Shown: positions 47-7,571 of the stretch, piece by piece
Layout: each line of letters starts with the position of its first letter
Numbering within the stretch: the first letter of the stretch is position 1
From: Nitrospinae bacterium RIFCSPLOWO2_12_FULL_45_22
Lineage (GTDB): Bacteria; 2-12-FULL-45-22
Reading direction: 5' to 3'
DNA: 7,827 bases
Assembly (NCBI GenBank): GCA_001803565.1
Contig: MHDQ01000148.1
Location: forward strand, 1 to 7,827
Position numbers and translations under genes: made by a program
Notes under the pieces: generated by a model
Told to the model about the DNA's origin: nothing
The model's database searches: none
What the model saw: the letters and a program-made list of their open reading frames with translations, nothing else

Positions 47-459
47 CGCTCGGGCAAGATGGAGTCACAAAAAAGGATTGGCTCTTGAGCGCTATTGCCT
101 TTGAGACGTATTGGTTGAAGGGCGAGCTCTGGTCATTATTGCAGATCCAGCAATGGCAAGTCTTTGGTTACAACCACAACTTGCGCAGTATGGGCAAACT
201 CCAAGAAGAGGATGAATGGGTCTTTCTCCTGGGATTTTCTAAAGATTTTAAATTTACTGATGACCGGTTAGGTGTCAACTGGACCAGTGCCTTCTTTGAT
301 GATGGGTCTGGTTTGCAACGCTATCAGATTAAATATATCATCTCCGATTATCTATCCTGCTGGGTGCGCTATTGGGGCTTTTATGGCCGTTCGGATGATA
401 GATTCGGCATGTTTAAGGATCGGGATCAGATTGAGTTTGTCCTCACTTATGAGTTTTAA
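1..459 (+). CDS. Outer-membrane beta-barrel protein, C-terminal part (DUF1302-like), 5' end outside window
   Basis: The frame is open from the window edge to a TAA at 457-459; the natural-looking protein starts at about position 25 (YFSTVDEPLGQDG). The visible ~145 residues alternate polar and aromatic residues as in beta-strands (WVFLLGFSKDF, RYQIKYIISDYL, CWVRYWGFYG). They end in FGMFKDRDQIEFVLTYEF, with the terminal Phe and alternating pattern typical of the outer-membrane insertion signal. The FG-x-F-x-DRD ending resembles DUF1302 barrels, which are often encoded beside DUF1329 proteins; that match is from memory, not a search. The gene is convergent with the DUF1329-like gene 443-1498 and overlaps it by 17 bp. 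The TTG at 85 is very unlikely to be the true start because the frame continues upstream. A 23-bp duplication at 1-46 breaks the frame, so the gene is either disrupted or affected by an assembly-edge error. Confidence 0.65.
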   Translation, partial: LLFYRRRTYFSTVDEPLGQDGVTKKDWLLSAIAFETYWLKGELWSLLQIQQWQVFGYNHNLRSMGKLQEEDEWVFLLGFSKDFKFTDDRLGVNWTSAFFDDGSGLQRYQIKYIISDYLSCWVRYWGFYGRSDDRFGMFKDRDQIEFVLTYEF

Positions 460-1498
460 TGGCCAGTATAGGGCTTCTAGGGGAGGGTTTTTCTGGCAAA
501 TCAGAAGCATCATTGATCGGGGGTATGGAGCCGCCTTTTGGTAAGCGCCATTGATATTGCTTTATTATCTGGCTGGGCACAAAGAAATCATCCCTAACCT
601 CTTGATCAAATATCCAATCATACAACTGAACGATGGTACGGCTATTGGTAATGATATTCAGACCGTTCCATTCTTCTCTTACCCAGTAGTTCCAGGGTTT
701 GATCTGGCGCCACCGGTTCTCGATGACTTTCCAAAGCTTCCCTTGCCGATCAAACTGCTCCTCATGAAGAGTTAAAAAATTGTCCTTTTCTATCCATGAT
801 AATCTCTTTCCCAGATAATAAAGAGGATCCTGGTTTATACTTTCTACTATAAAACATTTCTGACCATTTATAGTGTCTTCGCCGATAATGCGGTGATATT
901 CTTCCCAGGGTTCATATAGACTAAAATCATCCCGGGTCATCTCTGAACCAATAAAGTTATCCTTTTTAGGACGAGAAGGGGAACGTCTAACCTTTCTTAA
1001 ATCGGGCGCCCAGATCCAGGTATCCTCCAGCTTAGTCTGTTCTTTAGAGGTTAATAATCTATGCCAAACTAGACCCAGCCCCCATTCATTGGGTGGGCTC
1101 AAATAAATAACCACCCTCTTTATCCGGACATCCCCAGGTTTAATATCGCTATAGGTTAAAAGAGAGCGGTAGTTATTATAATAATATTTGTCCCTCTCTA
1201 GCCAAGTTTTGATGCTGATAAGACCATTAGCCCCTACCCGGATAAAGCGACAGACCGCGTCATTATCCTTGGTCCCGGGATAAAGGTGGGTATCGGCATA
1301 AGTCATTAGTTCTAGCCCGGTGTAACCATATTTTTTCAGGTCCAGCTTTTCTTCTGGTGTTAGCTCCTTTCGGCCCTGCTGGAGCCGGGCAACCCAGGGA
1401 TCGCCAATTAGCTCCTTAGGATTAATCCAATGGGCTGCCCAAGAAATAGAAAAGAATAAGGGGCAGAAGAAAAGAAATGTTATGAGCTTCGTTATCAT
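443..1498 (-). CDS. Secreted DUF1329/LolA-like periplasmic protein, short paralogue
   Basis: A 351-residue protein with a clear signal peptide (hydrophobic LITFLFFCPLFFSI, likely cut after SWA), so it is exported to the periplasm. Numbering below counts from the GTG at 1501. The core resembles outer-membrane-lipoprotein-sorting/DUF1329 proteins: TWIWAPDLRKVRRS near 161-174, TRDDFS near 189-194, IIGEDTINGQKCFIVES near 205-221, YYLGKRLSWIEK near 228-239, and LHEEQFDRQGKLWK near 245-258. All of these blocks recur in the upstream gene, so the two are tandem paralogues. The start was taken as ATG at 1498; the GTG at 1501 directly before it is possible, and the Shine-Dalgarno is weak (gagaaag). The gene begins about 10 nt after the upstream stop, so the two are co-transcribed. 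It ends at TGA 445-443, inside the 3' end of the opposing barrel gene. Probable role: periplasmic carrier of a lipid or other hydrophobic molecule. Substrate unknown. Confidence 0.75.
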   Translation of the reverse strand: MITKLITFLFFCPLFFSISWAAHWINPKELIGDPWVARLQQGRKELTPEEKLDLKKYGYTGLELMTYADTHLYPGTKDNDAVCRFIRVGANGLISIKTWLERDKYYYNNYRSLLTYSDIKPGDVRIKRVVIYLSPPNEWGLGLVWHRLLTSKEQTKLEDTWIWAPDLRKVRRSPSRPKKDNFIGSEMTRDDFSLYEPWEEYHRIIGEDTINGQKCFIVESINQDPLYYLGKRLSWIEKDNFLTLHEEQFDRQGKLWKVIENRWRQIKPWNYWVREEWNGLNIITNSRTIVQLYDWIFDQEVRDDFFVPSQIIKQYQWRLPKGGSIPPINDASDLPEKPSPRSPILAIKTHK

Positions 1499-1510
1499 CA
1501 CGTCTTTCTC

Positions 1511-2965
1511 TTATTCAAGGTTCTGGTATTTGGTACCATCGGCCCAGCCCATAGGGTCAAACCCAGCCCGGGCCTTCCACATATCCTGAGTAGCTTTGAA
1601 TTTGGCTTTGACTTTTGGGTCAAGCCGCTCTATCCCAAGCCGGTCTTTATGCTTCTTCTCTTCATAAAGCAGGGGAAGGGGGGGAAAGTGCTCAGCTTTG
1701 GTCACAGGCCGAATCTTTAGCGGCGGACGCCAGAAATATTCCTTAGACAACTCAGGTATAGTATACTTGCTCTCTGGGATTTTAACACCAAATTTGTAAC
1801 CACCAAGCCACTGAAATCCCCAATATTCCCGCTTTGCATCTCCGAATATCATGGTAGTCTTTCCCCAAGAAAACCTTCCTTTATAGGAATTAGGATAGGG
1901 CTTCCAGGTAGAATTTCCTAACCCCAACCGGTAAAGGTTACCCTGATGGTCAAAATGTTCTTCCCGGAGGTGTAATTTGGTATGCTTCTCTATCCAGTTG
2001 AGGATATATCCCAGGTAATAATTAGGGTCTTTAGGGATAACCTTAACTACCCAGCACTCTAGTCCACCATCGGCCCGATAAGGATTCATAGCATCTCCCC
2101 AGACCCCTTCGCCCGGAAAGACTGGGTTATCTGCAATTACCTTTGGGTCTCCCAAGATGCCATAACCCTTCATGCCATTAACTTCGTAGATGGTATCTTC
2201 ACCAATGATCTCATAATTGAACTCCCAGACCTGTCGCTCCCCAAAATCATCATTAGTTAAAGGGAAACCCAGGGCATCATCCTGGCGGTCACCACCGGCC
2301 GAGCGCCTCACCCGCCTCAAAGCCGGTACCCAGATATAGCGGTCTGGGTCTTTCCATCTCCCTGGGGCATTATTATACTTAATTTGTAGCTGGGCCAGGC
2401 CTCTGGTTTCTGGGGGGAAATCAAGAAGAGTAAAGGTTTTGAGCCAGATGGCATTGATCCCCTTCTTATAATGGACTATCTCATCAAACCGCTCCCAGTT
2501 CTGGGTCCGCATGAGATAGACATTTCTGTTAGTAACCAAACCCCGGCGGTTAATGGTAGGGAGATAGGTAAGGTAGTCCTGGGTTATACCTCCCTCACCA
2601 TACCAAAAGTTAAGCTCCCGAAACCACATAAGCTCCTCCCCAGTATAAGGGACATCGCTCCGGGGCCAGGATGGCTTGAACGGAAACTTATCTCTGGGCA
2701 TCCAGGGATATTCAGGATGACGGTGAGCCGGGTCGGTCCAGTCCTTTATTGGCTCTGCATAAGGAGTCCAACCTTTAATGTTTGAAGGTGCAGGTGCATA
2801 AGGGTCTATCTCTACCCATATACTTTTTCCCCTCTCAAATTTAATCTTCTTACCTTCCAGGGCTAATGCTCTCGAAGGATTAAACCAGCAAAATACTAGA
2901 CCCAGCAATAAGGCAACTTTATAACTGACCCTCTTCCTCTCCATAAGACACGCCCTCCTCTCCAT
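1511..2965 (-). CDS. Secreted DUF1329-like protein, long paralogue
   Basis: A 484-residue exported protein. Its basic N-terminus (MERRACLMERKR) precedes a hydrophobic stretch (VALLLGLVFCWF) and a likely signal-peptidase site at ALA-LE near residue 36. The conserved core is YIWVPALRRVRRS at about 210-222, LTNDDFG at 236-242, EIIGEDTI at 252-259, YYLGYILNWIEK at 316-327 and LREEHFDHQGNLYR at 333-346; the Trp/Arg-rich motif followed by DD is typical of DUF1329. Compared with the shorter downstream paralogue it has a longer N-terminal region rich in Trp and Pro, and an insertion of about 40 residues (near 260-302) rich in Gly, Pro and Asn. The ATG at 2965 is well supported by GGGAGG (2978-2973) seven bases upstream; the ATG at 2944 also follows a purine-rich stretch. 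It lies 81 bp after the putative selenoprotein gene with no clear terminator between them. Likely periplasmic partner of an outer-membrane barrel. Exact function unknown. Confidence 0.75.
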   Translation of the reverse strand: MERRACLMERKRVSYKVALLLGLVFCWFNPSRALALEGKKIKFERGKSIWVEIDPYAPAPSNIKGWTPYAEPIKDWTDPAHRHPEYPWMPRDKFPFKPSWPRSDVPYTGEELMWFRELNFWYGEGGITQDYLTYLPTINRRGLVTNRNVYLMRTQNWERFDEIVHYKKGINAIWLKTFTLLDFPPETRGLAQLQIKYNNAPGRWKDPDRYIWVPALRRVRRSAGGDRQDDALGFPLTNDDFGERQVWEFNYEIIGEDTIYEVNGMKGYGILGDPKVIADNPVFPGEGVWGDAMNPYRADGGLECWVVKVIPKDPNYYLGYILNWIEKHTKLHLREEHFDHQGNLYRLGLGNSTWKPYPNSYKGRFSWGKTTMIFGDAKREYWGFQWLGGYKFGVKIPESKYTIPELSKEYFWRPPLKIRPVTKAEHFPPLPLLYEEKKHKDRLGIERLDPKVKAKFKATQDMWKARAGFDPMGWADGTKYQNLE

Positions 2966-3046: not shown

Positions 3047-4273
3047 CTAGTCTAGCATTTCCATAAACTCTTCTATCCTATCCAGGTCTTGTTCTCGGCT
3101 GGCCCGGTGTCGTTCATCGCAGAGGTCGCCATCCAGGATTAATGAGGGGATGCCCAAGTCTCGATGAATAATATCCTTCACAGCCAGGTTTTGACCCCCT
3201 AGAACCCGGCAGCCCCAATGAGATAGGATAACCAGGCCATCTATTTTGTATTCATCAATAAGTTTCTTGATATAGTTGATCCTGAGCGGTAGATAATCTA
3301 GGTAGGCAAAGTTATGAATCATCCTCCTGGCCCAGCTCTCAGCGGGATGATCTGGGTCTAGTCGGCCGCCGGCCCATCCTATATCCAGGTCTGCTTTCAC
3401 CAGCACACCGCCAAAATCCTCAAAATAATTGAACAGGCCTATGTCATACCACCATGCTGGTCCGCCCACTAATAACAGCCGATGCTTCTCCTCATCTATG
3501 ACCCCTCGACCCTTATTGACCCGTTCTTGCATCTCGTTCCTAACCTTTTGCAGGAAATGGGTTGCCTCGGGGGTGCCTGTCAGGGCCATAGGGACAAACA
3601 GGCTAACAACTTCGTCCATAGCACCAGAAGGACATGGAATAGCCTTTTTCAATTCAGAAATATCACTCCACAGTTCCAATGCCTCATTGGTCATACAGTA
3701 AACATCCCTCAGTCTATTCATATCCAGTTGCTCGCCAGTTTGCTGTTCCAGAAATTCAATCATCTCATTATATTGATAGGCAAAGTATCTTACACTCTCC
3801 TCAGATATTTTAAGCTCGCCCTCCTTAGATAGGCTGAATCCCCCGGAAATATCTATCATAAAGAAAGGCAGTCCTAATTTTTCCGCGATGACCTCTCCAG
3901 ACTTACCCGCACTATCACAAAGGCAACCGAGGCCTACCACAAAATCTGGCCTGGGGTACATGATCTCCTCCTGAGACAATAGGGCCCCGACGAAGCCCCG
4001 GTGGAGGGCTCACGAGTCCCTGCCGTAGCCATGGGCTTCTGCCAGGAGCAAATAAGGCATGCCAGCCCCGCCTTTGGCGCTCATCTGGGCCGTAAAACCC
4101 TCACAGAAAATCGGGACAATATCCATAGCAAGCAATAGTTCCCTGGGTGTACCGCTTAGATGCCAGCATACTGGTCTACCCTCCTCTTTCTTGCGCCGGG
4201 CCTTAACATGATAGTCCTTTATTAAGGGCCAGAGCGTGCGTGTTGCTTGCAAGCCATATCTCTTTACAGCCAT
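3047..4273 (-). CDS. 2-hydroxyacyl-CoA dehydratase/benzoyl-CoA reductase-type subunit with in-frame UGA (probable selenocysteine)
   Basis: Read through one UGA (4012-4010), this frame gives 408 residues, about the normal length for the HgdB/BcrB/BcrC superfamily. ATG 4273 follows AGGGAGG by seven bases. The N-terminal domain (1-87) contains PRELLLAMDIVPI, the usual entry helix of the fold. The UGA is residue 88 in GYGRDS-U-ALHRGFVGALLS, matching the family pattern D-x-C-S-x-x-R-x-x-x-G; the upstream paralogue has NICSFIRSCLG here. The other expected cluster ligands are Cys119 (GLGCLCDSAGK; Cys117 also present) and Cys355 (LSHWGCR). The C-terminus has the family ending GIPSLILDGDLCDE...REQDLDRIEEFMEML. 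Family members carry a [4Fe-4S] cluster and transfer single electrons to acyl-CoA substrates in the cytoplasm, as dehydratase or aromatic-ring reductase. The substrate here is unknown. Alternatives are a nonsense mutation of TGC/TGT, or separate translation of an 87-residue peptide and a downstream protein from ATG 3961. A standard annotation would split this gene in two. Confidence 0.8.
3959..3972 (-). promoter_or_regulatory. Strong internal ribosome-binding-site-like sequence before ATG 3961
   Basis: AGGAGGAGATC precedes the in-frame ATG at 3961 with five bases between GGAGG and ATG, a near-ideal Shine-Dalgarno. It could allow re-initiation after the UGA, giving a 304-residue protein that lacks the N-terminal domain and the first cluster ligand. 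The same bases encode the QEEI stretch, and GGAGG is also the 3' arm of the putative SECIS lower helix, so it may simply be fortuitous. Confidence 0.4.
3967..4007 (-). promoter_or_regulatory. Candidate bacterial SECIS stem-loop just downstream of the UGA
   Basis: In the mRNA an apical hairpin GGGGCUUC-GUC-GGGGCCCU (3999-3981) forms eight pairs (several G-U) around a GUC triloop. The first loop base, G, lies 19 nt after the UGA. A lower helix CCUCC/GGAGG (4007-4003 with 3971-3967) can close it, leaving an internal loop. Bacterial SECIS elements are recognised by a short apical loop with an early G roughly 16-37 nt after the UGA, which this fits. No clear bulged U is visible in the upper stem, and no folding energy was computed. 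Confidence 0.5.
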
Positions 4274-4405: not shown

Positions 4406-5533
4406 CTATGGCCGAGAAAGCATCTCTAAGAAAGCTTGAACTCGGGTCTTGACCTGTCCAATACTAAGTGAAGAGTGTTCTATCTCTAGCTCTAATGTAG
4501 GGATGTCATATCTCTTGAGCATATCTATACATTCCGGGGTGTCATAGACAAAATTGTCACAAAACTTTATAAGGAAGATAATTACCCCATCTACCTGGAA
4601 TTCCCGGGCCAAATTAATGATATGCTGAAACCGTTTTTCCCGGGGATGGATAAAAGGACAGGGAATTCTTTCCAGATAGTGGTTAACAAGGGCTTCAAGA
4701 GGATCTTTGTCCAGCTTAACTTGATCCCAAAAATACCGGCTACCCATACACAAATCATCACTTACGACGATGGCTCCTGCATCCTCGACGGCTTTTATAA
4801 ACGCCGGGTTATCAATCATGCTGCCAGTAATCAATATCCTTGGCTTTTTATCTGAACTGATACTTGGACTGCCTTTCAGTTTATCCAAAAGCCCCTTGAT
4901 CAGGGAGCTGCTCTTCTCTTTTGGCAATATCATGCTAGAGCGGACCACCTGGGCCACCTCATGCCCCCATATCTTTACCCCCCTTTCCTTATTACGCCAT
5001 TGATAAACTTCCTTTAAAAGGGCACGGTTTTCGTTACATAGCCTTATAGCATGCCTCAATGCCTCAGAAGAAATTTTAACCTTGCCGAACTCCTCCAACT
5101 CAAAGATAAACCTCTCTATTTCTTTTTTATAATAACTATGAGTAAAATCCGATATCCGGTGAGGATGATCAATGACATACATAAAGGGAACCTTACTATA
5201 TAGCTCCCATACATCGTGTAGCTTACGCATCTGGCCACAACTCCGGGCTGTAATCAATCCATCCAGAAACTGGTACCTACCTTCCAGGACTTCTCCTAAA
5301 CAGCTCCGGATAAAAGAACAGATATTGACCTGTAAAACAGATTCGCCTTTATGACTTCCGTTTATACCGCCAAAGACCCTTATAGGTAGCATATCTGCAG
5401 CATAAATGATCTCTTCTGGTACATAGAGACAGGTATACCCCATAACTTTTTTGTTCCTAGACTTCCAACCCGCTATCTCTTCTTGAGATAGTAAGGTCAA
5501 CCTGGCCATATCAAACTCTTTTAAAATATCCAT
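4406..5533 (-). CDS. 2-hydroxyacyl-CoA dehydratase/benzoyl-CoA reductase-type subunit (HgdB/BcrB-like), all-Cys
   Basis: A 375-residue protein from ATG 5533, with GGAGG upstream; the GTG at 5536 is equally acceptable. In-frame starts as far up as 5635 exist but precede the predicted transcription start. Family signatures: LYVPEEIIYAADMLPI (about 36-51), which opens the superfamily fold; NICSFIRSCLG with Cys72 and Cys78; ITARSCGQMRK with Cys99; a Rossmann-like second half (PRILITGSMIDNPAF, about 231-245); IIFLIKFCDN with Cys325; and the C-terminal IPTLELEIE...TRVQAFLEML. Cys72, Cys99 and Cys325 are the expected three ligands of a [4Fe-4S] cluster. It is the first gene of the minus-strand unit, 132 bp before the UGA-containing paralogue, and the two probably make a heterodimer. 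Such enzymes act in the cytoplasm under anoxic conditions and need an ATP-dependent activator, not present here. Dehydratase, ring reductase or another substrate class cannot be decided from sequence alone. Confidence 0.85.
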   Translation of the reverse strand: MDILKEFDMARLTLLSQEEIAGWKSRNKKVMGYTCLYVPEEIIYAADMLPIRVFGGINGSHKGESVLQVNICSFIRSCLGEVLEGRYQFLDGLITARSCGQMRKLHDVWELYSKVPFMYVIDHPHRISDFTHSYYKKEIERFIFELEEFGKVKISSEALRHAIRLCNENRALLKEVYQWRNKERGVKIWGHEVAQVVRSSMILPKEKSSSLIKGLLDKLKGSPSISSDKKPRILITGSMIDNPAFIKAVEDAGAIVVSDDLCMGSRYFWDQVKLDKDPLEALVNHYLERIPCPFIHPREKRFQHIINLAREFQVDGVIIFLIKFCDNFVYDTPECIDMLKRYDIPTLELEIEHSSLSIGQVKTRVQAFLEMLSRP

Positions 5534-5635
5534 CACCTTTTCATACCCTCCTTCTTTTTTTCTCCGATAAGTTTTGCTGACTGCTGCCACCTGACGGCTG
5601 GACGCTTGCCTATTTTTCATTGGCCAATTGACCAA

Positions 5636-5780: not shown

Positions 5781-5891
5781 GGGTGTGGCTATTCTTTGTC
5801 ATAAAGTTGGTGTAACTCGGGGCTTTAGCCCTGATTGGTCAACCCTGAAGGGTTGAGTTACGGGTCTCTCTGACAGAAAATAGCCACACCC
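5781..5891. mobile_element. MITE-like element, copy 1
   Basis: This 111-bp element has terminal inverted repeats GGGTGTGGCTATT(C)TTTGTCA and its complement ending AATAGCCACACCC, 19 of 21 bases matching. It is flanked exactly by ttttcgata (5772-5780) and ttttctata (5892-5900), an 8/9 match that looks like a 9-bp target duplication. It contains no transposase gene. A second copy with the same ends in the same orientation is at 7572-7702. It would need a transposase supplied from elsewhere. Confidence 0.65.
5812..5861. repeat. Palindromic core of MITE-like copy 1
   Basis: GTAACTC (5812-5818) and GAGTTAC (5855-5861) enclose two smaller hairpins, GGGCTTTAGCCC and AACCCTGAAGGGTT. This 50-bp unit resembles an independent dispersed repeat and is absent from copy 2, which has a different core at the same place. 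Confidence 0.6.
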
Positions 5892-5930
5892 TTTTCTATA
5901 GGGGCTGAACGGTTACGAATTTTTTAAGGG

Positions 5931-5965
5931 AATTCCTATATGTTTAAATTTATTGCCTAGGAATT
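5931..5965. repeat. AT-rich inverted repeat after the radical SAM gene
   Basis: AATTCCTA (5931-5938) and TAGGAATT (5958-5965) form an 8-bp stem with a 19-base loop directly after the TGA at 5969-5967. No clear U-tract follows on the minus strand, so a terminator role is weak; it might stabilise the 3' end. Confidence 0.35.
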
Positions 5966-5966
5966 T

Positions 5967-7526
5967 TCATTTTAATAATGCGGTTTTGTGGTAGTCGCCT
6001 GCCTGTGACCTGGCAGACAGGCAGGCTTTAGCCGGCGTTAATTTTTTTAGCATGGTAGTTTGTAACTCCGAGAGAGAAGCCTCTAATTGGGGCAATTTAT
6101 GGGTTTTCAAGGTTAAGGATAATGCCTGTTCAAAACCTTCTATGACCAAGCAGTTCAGCCTCTTAAATATCTTTTCTTCTTCTGGCGTGCTGTCAGACAT
6201 ATCCAAATCCCTGCCCTGGACATAAGCCAGTACTCTACGAGAAACCTCCGCCTGGTACTCATATAAGAGCTGTACCCTGGGCTCAAAAGTATCGAGCCCA
6301 AGGAAATATTCCGAGCCGGTTTTTTGCCTGATCATGCAGTAAAGGGGATGGCCCCAGGAGATGAAGGTTGGGTGATAAAGGACATGACAGGTAGTAGTTG
6401 GGGTATGGAGGAGTTCCTGCTCTTTAAGGAACCGGAGATTCTCTGCTATATCTTCTAAGTTAGAAAAGGGTGCAAACATAATAAAACCGGTAGAGATATT
6501 CAAACCATGTCTCCGGCAGAGTTGTAATGCCTTTATACTATCCGTTACCCTAATATTTTTCTTCACCCTATCCAGCCACCGCTGGCTTCCACTCTCTATG
6601 CCCAGGAATATATAGCGTAGCCCCGCCTCGCTCAGTAATGCCAGGGAGCTCTCTTGAATATCATTGACCCGGGTTTCAAAACCAAAGACTATCCCAGGGG
6701 CCTGCTCTTTTATTAATCGCGCCAGCTCCATAGCCCGCTGTTGTCCGAACAACCCGGGGCCAAAAAAGTTAGGATCAGCAAAATAAAAATGGGATTTCAG
6801 TGGCTCTTCCAAAAGAGTTATAATTTCCCTGACAATATTCTGGGGACTGCGGCCCCGCCACCCTGCCTGATAACCATAAAAGGGATTAATATAGCAGAAA
6901 AAGCAACTGTTATAACAACCCCGACTCCCTTGAATATAAGTAAACGTTGAATCGGTTTCAGATTGGATACGGCAGGGGAAAGGTAAAGAATCCAGCTCCA
7001 TAATAGGCGATTGATAAGCCCCTTTAATAATGTTACCAGTAGTATCCCGATAGGCTATACCAGGAAACCCTTGCCAGCTTTCCTTTTTTCCCAGGGCAGT
7101 GGCTAATTCAGCTATGGTAATCTCCGGTTCTCCCAGGGTAATAGAATCTATAACCGGGTATTGGGAAAGGATTAAGTCATAAGCAAAGGTAGGATAATAA
7201 CCGAACAGATTGATATGGGCCGTGGGGTTTATATCTTTAACCTCTTTCAGCGACTGGATTATCTTGTCGGTATTTTCAAAACTATATATCAGTTGCAAGG
7301 ATAAGAGGTAAGGCTCCTGGCCCATAAGGTTAGCGATGCAGGTTGGTATCTCAGCCAGACCCCAGCCCTTCTGTTGGGCATCTATCAGATAATGGGATAT
7401 GCCGCGCTCTTTCAAGACTGCTGCTACATATCCCGGCATAAGGCAGGCTGTCAGGGGAGAATCTACTACTACATCATAACTCTCGGCAGTCCAGAACCTG
7501 GGATAACTTAGTATTATTACCGACAT
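5967..7526 (-). CDS. Radical SAM protein with B12-binding-like N-terminal region
   Basis: A 519-residue protein from ATG 7526, preceded by a G-rich purine tract (AAGGGAGTGGGGGAGG); in-frame TTG 7568 extends it by 14 residues but is less likely. Residues ~1-160 show the alternating strand/helix order of cobalamin-binding domains (SPLTACLMPGYVAAVLKERG, then LFGYYPTFAYDLILSQYP and TLGEPE) but lack the DxHxxG B12 ligand motif. The radical SAM core carries CYNSCFFC (Cys204, Cys208, Cys211), the CX3CX2C loop that binds the [4Fe-4S] cluster and S-adenosylmethionine. It continues with GFETRVND and LRYIFLGIESGSQRWLDRVKK (Elp3/MiaB-like core) and GFIMFAPF. The C-terminal ~120 residues are not recognised, and the last ~20 are encoded by a palindromic repeat. 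It lies between two MITE-like copies and is separated from the Fe-S operon by the repeat island, so a shared pathway is not implied. Reaction unknown; methyl transfer, methylthiolation or rearrangement are all possible. Confidence 0.8.
   Translation of the reverse strand: MSVIILSYPRFWTAESYDVVVDSPLTACLMPGYVAAVLKERGISHYLIDAQQKGWGLAEIPTCIANLMGQEPYLLSLQLIYSFENTDKIIQSLKEVKDINPTAHINLFGYYPTFAYDLILSQYPVIDSITLGEPEITIAELATALGKKESWQGFPGIAYRDTTGNIIKGAYQSPIMELDSLPFPCRIQSETDSTFTYIQGSRGCYNSCFFCYINPFYGYQAGWRGRSPQNIVREIITLLEEPLKSHFYFADPNFFGPGLFGQQRAMELARLIKEQAPGIVFGFETRVNDIQESSLALLSEAGLRYIFLGIESGSQRWLDRVKKNIRVTDSIKALQLCRRHGLNISTGFIMFAPFSNLEDIAENLRFLKEQELLHTPTTTCHVLYHPTFISWGHPLYCMIRQKTGSEYFLGLDTFEPRVQLLYEYQAEVSRRVLAYVQGRDLDMSDSTPEEEKIFKRLNCLVIEGFEQALSLTLKTHKLPQLEASLSELQTTMLKKLTPAKACLSARSQAGDYHKTALLK
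5997..6026. repeat. Palindromic repeat inside the 3' end of the radical SAM gene
   Basis: GCCTGCCTGT (5997-6006) and ACAGGCAGGC (6017-6026) are perfect 10-bp inverted arms around a 10-base loop. The repeat is read as coding sequence for the final residues (CLSARSQAGD). The pattern resembles a dispersed repeat that extended or replaced the original C-terminus. Confidence 0.7.
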
Positions 7527-7571
7527 AACCTCCCCCACTCCCTTCTTCTGAGTAAGTATCCTAACCAATTT

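Follow-up and report, generated by a model that had tools for sequence, protein, structure and literature searches.

An in-frame UGA in the gene described here is almost certainly decoded as selenocysteine (Sec), at a position where homologous proteins carry a cysteine ligand of the catalytic iron-sulfur cluster. The gene (3047-4273, minus strand) lies in a 7,827-nucleotide window from the genome of Nitrospinae bacterium RIFCSPLOWO2_12_FULL_45_22, an anaerobe that is uncultured. By prediction it encodes a catalytic, substrate-binding large subunit of the HGD-D family, 408 residues long with Sec at residue 88. Taken together with the gene beside it, it likely specifies a two-subunit CoA-thioester-type reductase in which Sec would be the first ligand of the catalytic cluster.

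The frame runs from an ATG at 4273, with a purine-rich GGGAGGG ahead of it, through 409 codons to a TAG at 3049-3047. Its sole interruption is the TGA of codon 88 (4010-4012, minus strand), and re-reading the strand confirmed the single UGA that the original prediction had placed there. Read through this codon, the frame matches PF06050 (HGD-D) with 220.2 bits against a gathering score of 28.4. Cys119 and Cys355 were found where they had been reported and, like the residue 88 column, are invariant in a 34-row alignment; U88, C119 and C355 are the predicted cluster ligands. A search of the genome itself, a single metagenome-type assembly of 3.67 Mb in 321 contigs with 85% completeness, gave 49 sequences that match the window protein. 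After profile alignment of 51 HGD-D segments, 45 paralogues reach the residue 88 column, which is TGC or TGT in 42 and TGA in three, and invariantly Cys in the Cys homologues. Only these three TGA codons occur among the 18,675 aligned codons of the 51 segments. The genes concerned lie on three contigs: the window gene, a gene on contig C53 that is 59% identical to it and reads GRDS-U-SLHRG around the UGA, and a divergent gene on contig C231 that reads ARDL-U-SYLKN. Given their 59% identity, the first two are not independent cases.

The presumed partner of the Sec subunit is a small subunit of the BzdN/DCCP type (4406-5635, minus strand; PF06050, 325 bits). It has all six double-cubane cysteines (C69, C106, C133, C296, C326 and C359, equivalent to the [8Fe-9S] ligands 36, 73, 100, 263, 293 and 327 of BzdN), as do the partners of the C53 and C231 Sec proteins. 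Its best curated profile is that of the double-cubane reductase, at 239.9 bits and below the cut-off of 350. It has both the six-Cys set and the best curated profile in common with DCCP (PDB 6eno, 7yyl), from which the window differs in pairing a double-cubane-type subunit with a separate Sec-type large subunit. By alignment, the window pair also resembles BzdNO, with a three-ligand [4Fe-4S] site in the large subunit and six double-cubane cysteines in the small one. Measured against the bzdO, bzdN, bcrB or bcrC equivalog cut-offs, the large subunit scores 89.7 of 448.6 bits and the small subunit 194.3 of 453.8; neither reaches its cut-off, and we therefore do not file the pair as a benzoyl-CoA reductase. 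The C231 pair scores 400.8 of 448.6 and 433.6 of 453.8 bits against the class I benzoyl-CoA reductase equivalog cut-offs.

A real Sec protein that is a 2-hydroxyacyl-CoA dehydratase (HAD) instead of a reductase seems to us rather unlikely, although parts of the large subunit favor it. HadBC, the 2-hydroxyisocaproyl-CoA dehydratase (PDB 3o3m), shares the fold and the large-subunit cluster coordination, with Cys instead of Sec. An AlphaFold2 model of the window protein (pLDDT 92.1, pTM 0.91) lies nearest to HadB (Z 46.2, rmsd 2.0, 387 residues aligned) and somewhat further from BzdO (Z 43.6, rmsd 2.3, 398 aligned). Identity to BzdO is only about 20%, and the equivalent of BzdO His131 is missing, its place being taken by Ala122; HadB also has Ala there. 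The best sequence profile of the large subunit is likewise HadB, yet at 131 of 750 bits it stays far below the cut-off. The small subunit speaks for a reductase: where HadC carries Pro and Ala, in two of the six double-cubane positions, the window protein has Cys, so that the reduced Cys set of the HadBC type, with its [4Fe-5S] site, is absent. A complete double-cubane set where HadC lacks two members points to a reductase over a dehydratase, and the best curated profile of the small subunit, the BadI-like crotonase beside the C53 paralogue and the clear relationship of the C231 paralogue to BzdO all weigh the same way. The window pair is thus probably a reductase, and one of the class I benzoyl-CoA reductase/double-cubane type. 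Enzymes of this kind should have an ATP-dependent activase; a motif search of the loci examined found none.

The substrate may be sought in the neighbors of the sister loci. A BadI-like crotonase, a CoA-transferase and a succinate-CoA-ligase-like subunit are encoded near the C53 gene, and UbiD-family decarboxylases near the C231 gene; from these we see about an even chance that the substrate is an aromatic or alicyclic acid. In the window, a B12-binding-like radical SAM protein (5967-7568, minus strand; PF04055, 68.6 bits) is encoded upstream of the reductase pair; it resembles BchE/HpnJ-type enzymes and reaches no curated equivalog cut-off. Downstream lie two genes for LolA-like/DUF1329 proteins, the first a periplasmic or outer-membrane protein (1511-2965, minus strand; PF17131, 61.2 bits), the second (443-1501, minus strand; PF17131, 108.6 bits) closed by an ordinary UGA stop. 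A partial ORF at 1-459, with a weak match to DUF1302 (E 0.11), converges on these two genes, and together they could possibly represent an outer-membrane pair beside the reductase genes.

How residue 88 relates to the cluster can be read from two enzymes. In BzdO the catalytic [4Fe-4S] cluster is held by Cys95, Cys128 and Cys380, with a water or hydroxide as fourth ligand toward the substrate, and HadB coordinates its cluster in the same way (PMC11971306). U88, C119 and C355 of the window protein align with these three cysteines, so that the Sec proteins have UGA where BzdO has Cys95. The earlier proposal that the UGA falls on a conserved cluster cysteine thereby gains a structural footing, this column being a crystallographic cluster ligand in BzdO (PMC11971306). 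The window protein also has an equivalent of BzdO Glu65 (Glu58). Correspondence is closer for the C231 protein, which matches BzdO over the whole fold (E=1.6e-111, 42% identity; model Z 56.6, rmsd 1.3) and places U98 on Cys95, Cys131 on Cys128 and Cys382 on Cys380, as counted along the alignment. Glu65 and His131 both have equivalents in it, and its gene follows a BzdN-like gene. We infer Sec to be a cluster ligand because the homologous column holds the cluster; as an argument from homology, the case is strong for the C231 protein and good for the window protein. If Sec is inserted, Fe-Se ligation would very likely follow. Sec could instead be a separate redox or nucleophilic residue, with the cluster lost or altered, since selenium ligation is read from Cys homologues only. 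We consider this quite improbable, as no Sec form has lost the cysteines equivalent to C119 and C355 and the C231 form resembles BzdO throughout.

Insertion of Sec requires a signal and a machinery. Bacterial SECIS elements are modeled with a stem of 4-16 bp, a loop of 3-9 nt with G within its first two positions, a spacing of 16-37 nt and an MFE of at most -7.5 kcal/mol (PMC13188914). The window gene has a putative SECIS hairpin that fits this model, GGGGCUUC-GUC-GGGGCCCU (3981-3999, minus strand), with an 8-bp stem that starts 11 nt 3' of the UGA, G first in the apical loop and 18 nt from UGA to loop. The C53 hairpin reads GGGGCUUC-GUG-GGAGCCCU at the same spacing of 18, and that of C231 AGAACC-AGUUA-GGUUCU at a spacing of 16. 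When hairpins behind the homologous codon were scored alike in all 45 paralogues, the three UGA genes took ranks 1-3 (-11.1, -10.3 and -6.2 kcal/mol, with the window gene second); the best hairpin of a Cys gene reached -5.2 kcal/mol, and 21 of the 45 had none that qualified. The chance of this ranking is 1/14,190 if the genes are independent, and less extreme than that in truth because two of the UGA genes are related. The C231 stem alone is weaker than the guide value of -7.5 kcal/mol; its 40-nt fold has -8.7. Neither the window nor the two sister contigs gave an Rfam match to a SECIS family, and the whole post-UGA region, folded against shuffles, was not significant (z about 0), so that the SECIS evidence rests on the model-specific comparison across paralogues. 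The machinery is complete: SelA and SelB are encoded together on contig C264, a tRNA-Sec with anticodon UCA (75 bits) on contig C247, and SelD on contig C19, with an in-frame UGA of its own in an HGGG-U-ACK motif. Together with the homologue column, these genes support the original prediction of a probable selenocysteine.

The UGA might nevertheless be a true stop, leaving a pseudogene or an 87-residue product with a separate start downstream. In keeping with such a reading, the genome otherwise uses UGA as an ordinary stop (in the window at 445-443 and 5969-5967), and a TTG start is available at 3979, shortly 3' of the codon. We find it scarcely credible, given that the aligned codons include TGA three times, always in the same invariant Cys column, and given the matching hairpins and the complete Sec machinery. 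Codon positions 1 and 2 are moreover conserved relative to position 3 both 5' and 3' of the UGA; in the window/C53 pair, divergence 3' of the UGA is 0.34, 0.19 and 0.59 for positions 1, 2 and 3, as expected of translated sequence. On these signals Sec insertion at the UGA appears highly probable. Sequencing or assembly errors that turned TGC or TGT into TGA are conceivable in a draft of 321 contigs, but the chance is negligible that the same codon went wrong in three genes on three contigs, exactly those with the best SECIS-type hairpins. Genome-wide reading of UGA as Trp or Cys is rejected, as had been argued earlier from the two ordinary UGA stops: TGG is used 294 times, and within the aligned segments UGA occurs at this column only.

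To account for Cys and Sec in 34 large subunits, a maximum-likelihood tree requires two exchanges of one for the other, and its starred branches force at least two. These switches, as reconstructed from the sequences, would have happened at least two times, independently. The Cys sister of the C231 Sec protein is encoded in the same genome (contig C153, 224-1501); it is BzdO-like and 60% identical, carries GFARDVCAYMRN and is without a qualifying SECIS-type hairpin. The C231 and C153 proteins are a natural Sec/Cys pair in one genome.

We propose that SelB, with Sec-tRNA(UCA), would decode the UGA at the downstream hairpin. The small subunit (4406-5635) would store electrons in an [8Fe-9S] double cubane, and the large subunit (3047-4273) would bind the substrate and hold a catalytic [4Fe-4S] cluster on three protein ligands, of which U88 would be the first. 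The most likely effect of the selenolate would be to alter the potential, the hydrogen-atom-transfer reactivity or the oxidative robustness of the catalytic cluster. One could speculate further that a Se-ligated catalytic [4Fe-4S] cluster forms a functional class of its own, with Sec recruited at least twice for the energetics of hydrogen-atom transfer at Fe-Se, enabling reductions, or reversible operation, beyond those of an all-Cys cluster; we think this unlikely. The reaction of class I benzoyl-CoA reductases, a biological Birch reduction carried out at a [4Fe-4S]-OH2 cluster, is among the hardest reductions that enzymes achieve.

Other selenoproteins have been connected with this kind of metabolism. 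Selenium was reportedly linked by Peters in 2004 to benzoate metabolism in Desulfococcus multivorans, and BamF of class II benzoyl-CoA reductase contains Sec. These are likewise cases of selenoproteins in anaerobic aromatic metabolism; class II benzoyl-CoA reductase is tungsten-dependent, and BamF falls outside the HGD-D family. Of the 119 families and subfamilies in a catalogue of prokaryotic selenoproteins from May 2026, none is HGD-D, benzoyl-CoA reductase or hydroxyacyl-CoA dehydratase (PMC13188914). Searches of open-access papers yielded no report of Sec in the HGD-D family; the enzyme family is known, its Sec form likely undescribed. The same catalogue does include a DUF523 selenoprotein subfamily with the motif SxSUG and a nitrogenase component I alpha selenoprotein, annotated in GenBank, with RxU (PMC13188914); by analogy, both may be further instances of Sec near metal clusters. 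The TudS fold forms one domain of the HGD-D family (PMC11971306). Unlike the HGD-D large subunit, the DUF523 selenoprotein is small and has one domain. If DUF523 is, as we assume, TudS, then that subfamily may likewise have Sec at a related cluster site.

Beyond the addition, if true, of one more family to the selenoprotein catalogue, we see practical value in a cluster ligand that has apparently been replaced by selenium more than once while Cys sisters were kept in the same genome. It offers a ready-made Sec/Cys comparison for the effect of selenium on an iron-sulfur catalyst, and 77Se would give spectroscopy a handle on the cluster. In BzdNO, exchanging the cluster-ligand cysteines for Ala gave unstable variants (PMC11971306), which makes a natural swap of ligand useful. 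Automatic annotation is likely to truncate UGA-containing genes of this kind.

About 780 other genomes were sampled and gave no UGA homologue, a result limited by sampling and thresholds. The source genome aside, 386 domain-wide genomes gave a single match at E<=1e-60, without an internal stop; 393 genomes of the class Dehalococcoidia gave 42 matches to a BzdO-type query, none with TGA; and the sole other genome in the phylum, from the same order, has 20 HGD-D matches, none with an internal stop. PLSDB plasmids returned only distant matches, of about 27% identity at most. Scanning genome contigs with the window protein recovered only two homologues, about 29% identical, both Cys-type and from Dehalococcoidia.

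Two contigs of the source genome deserve mention. Contig C19 carries, at 5853-6779 and 9123-10289, the UGA-containing selD and a Cys-type paralogue that is among those closest to the window protein. Contig C215 (213-761) encodes another N-terminal segment like that of SelB, with 60% identity to the C264 SelB across 169 residues. Its frame then enters unrelated sequence and stops; it could be a second SelB, a remnant or a contaminant. With 49 HGD-D matches in 3.67 Mb, the 2-hydroxyacyl-CoA dehydratase/benzoyl-CoA reductase family is unusually expanded in this genome, and two Dehalococcoidia genomes of less than 2 Mb have 31 and 36 such matches.
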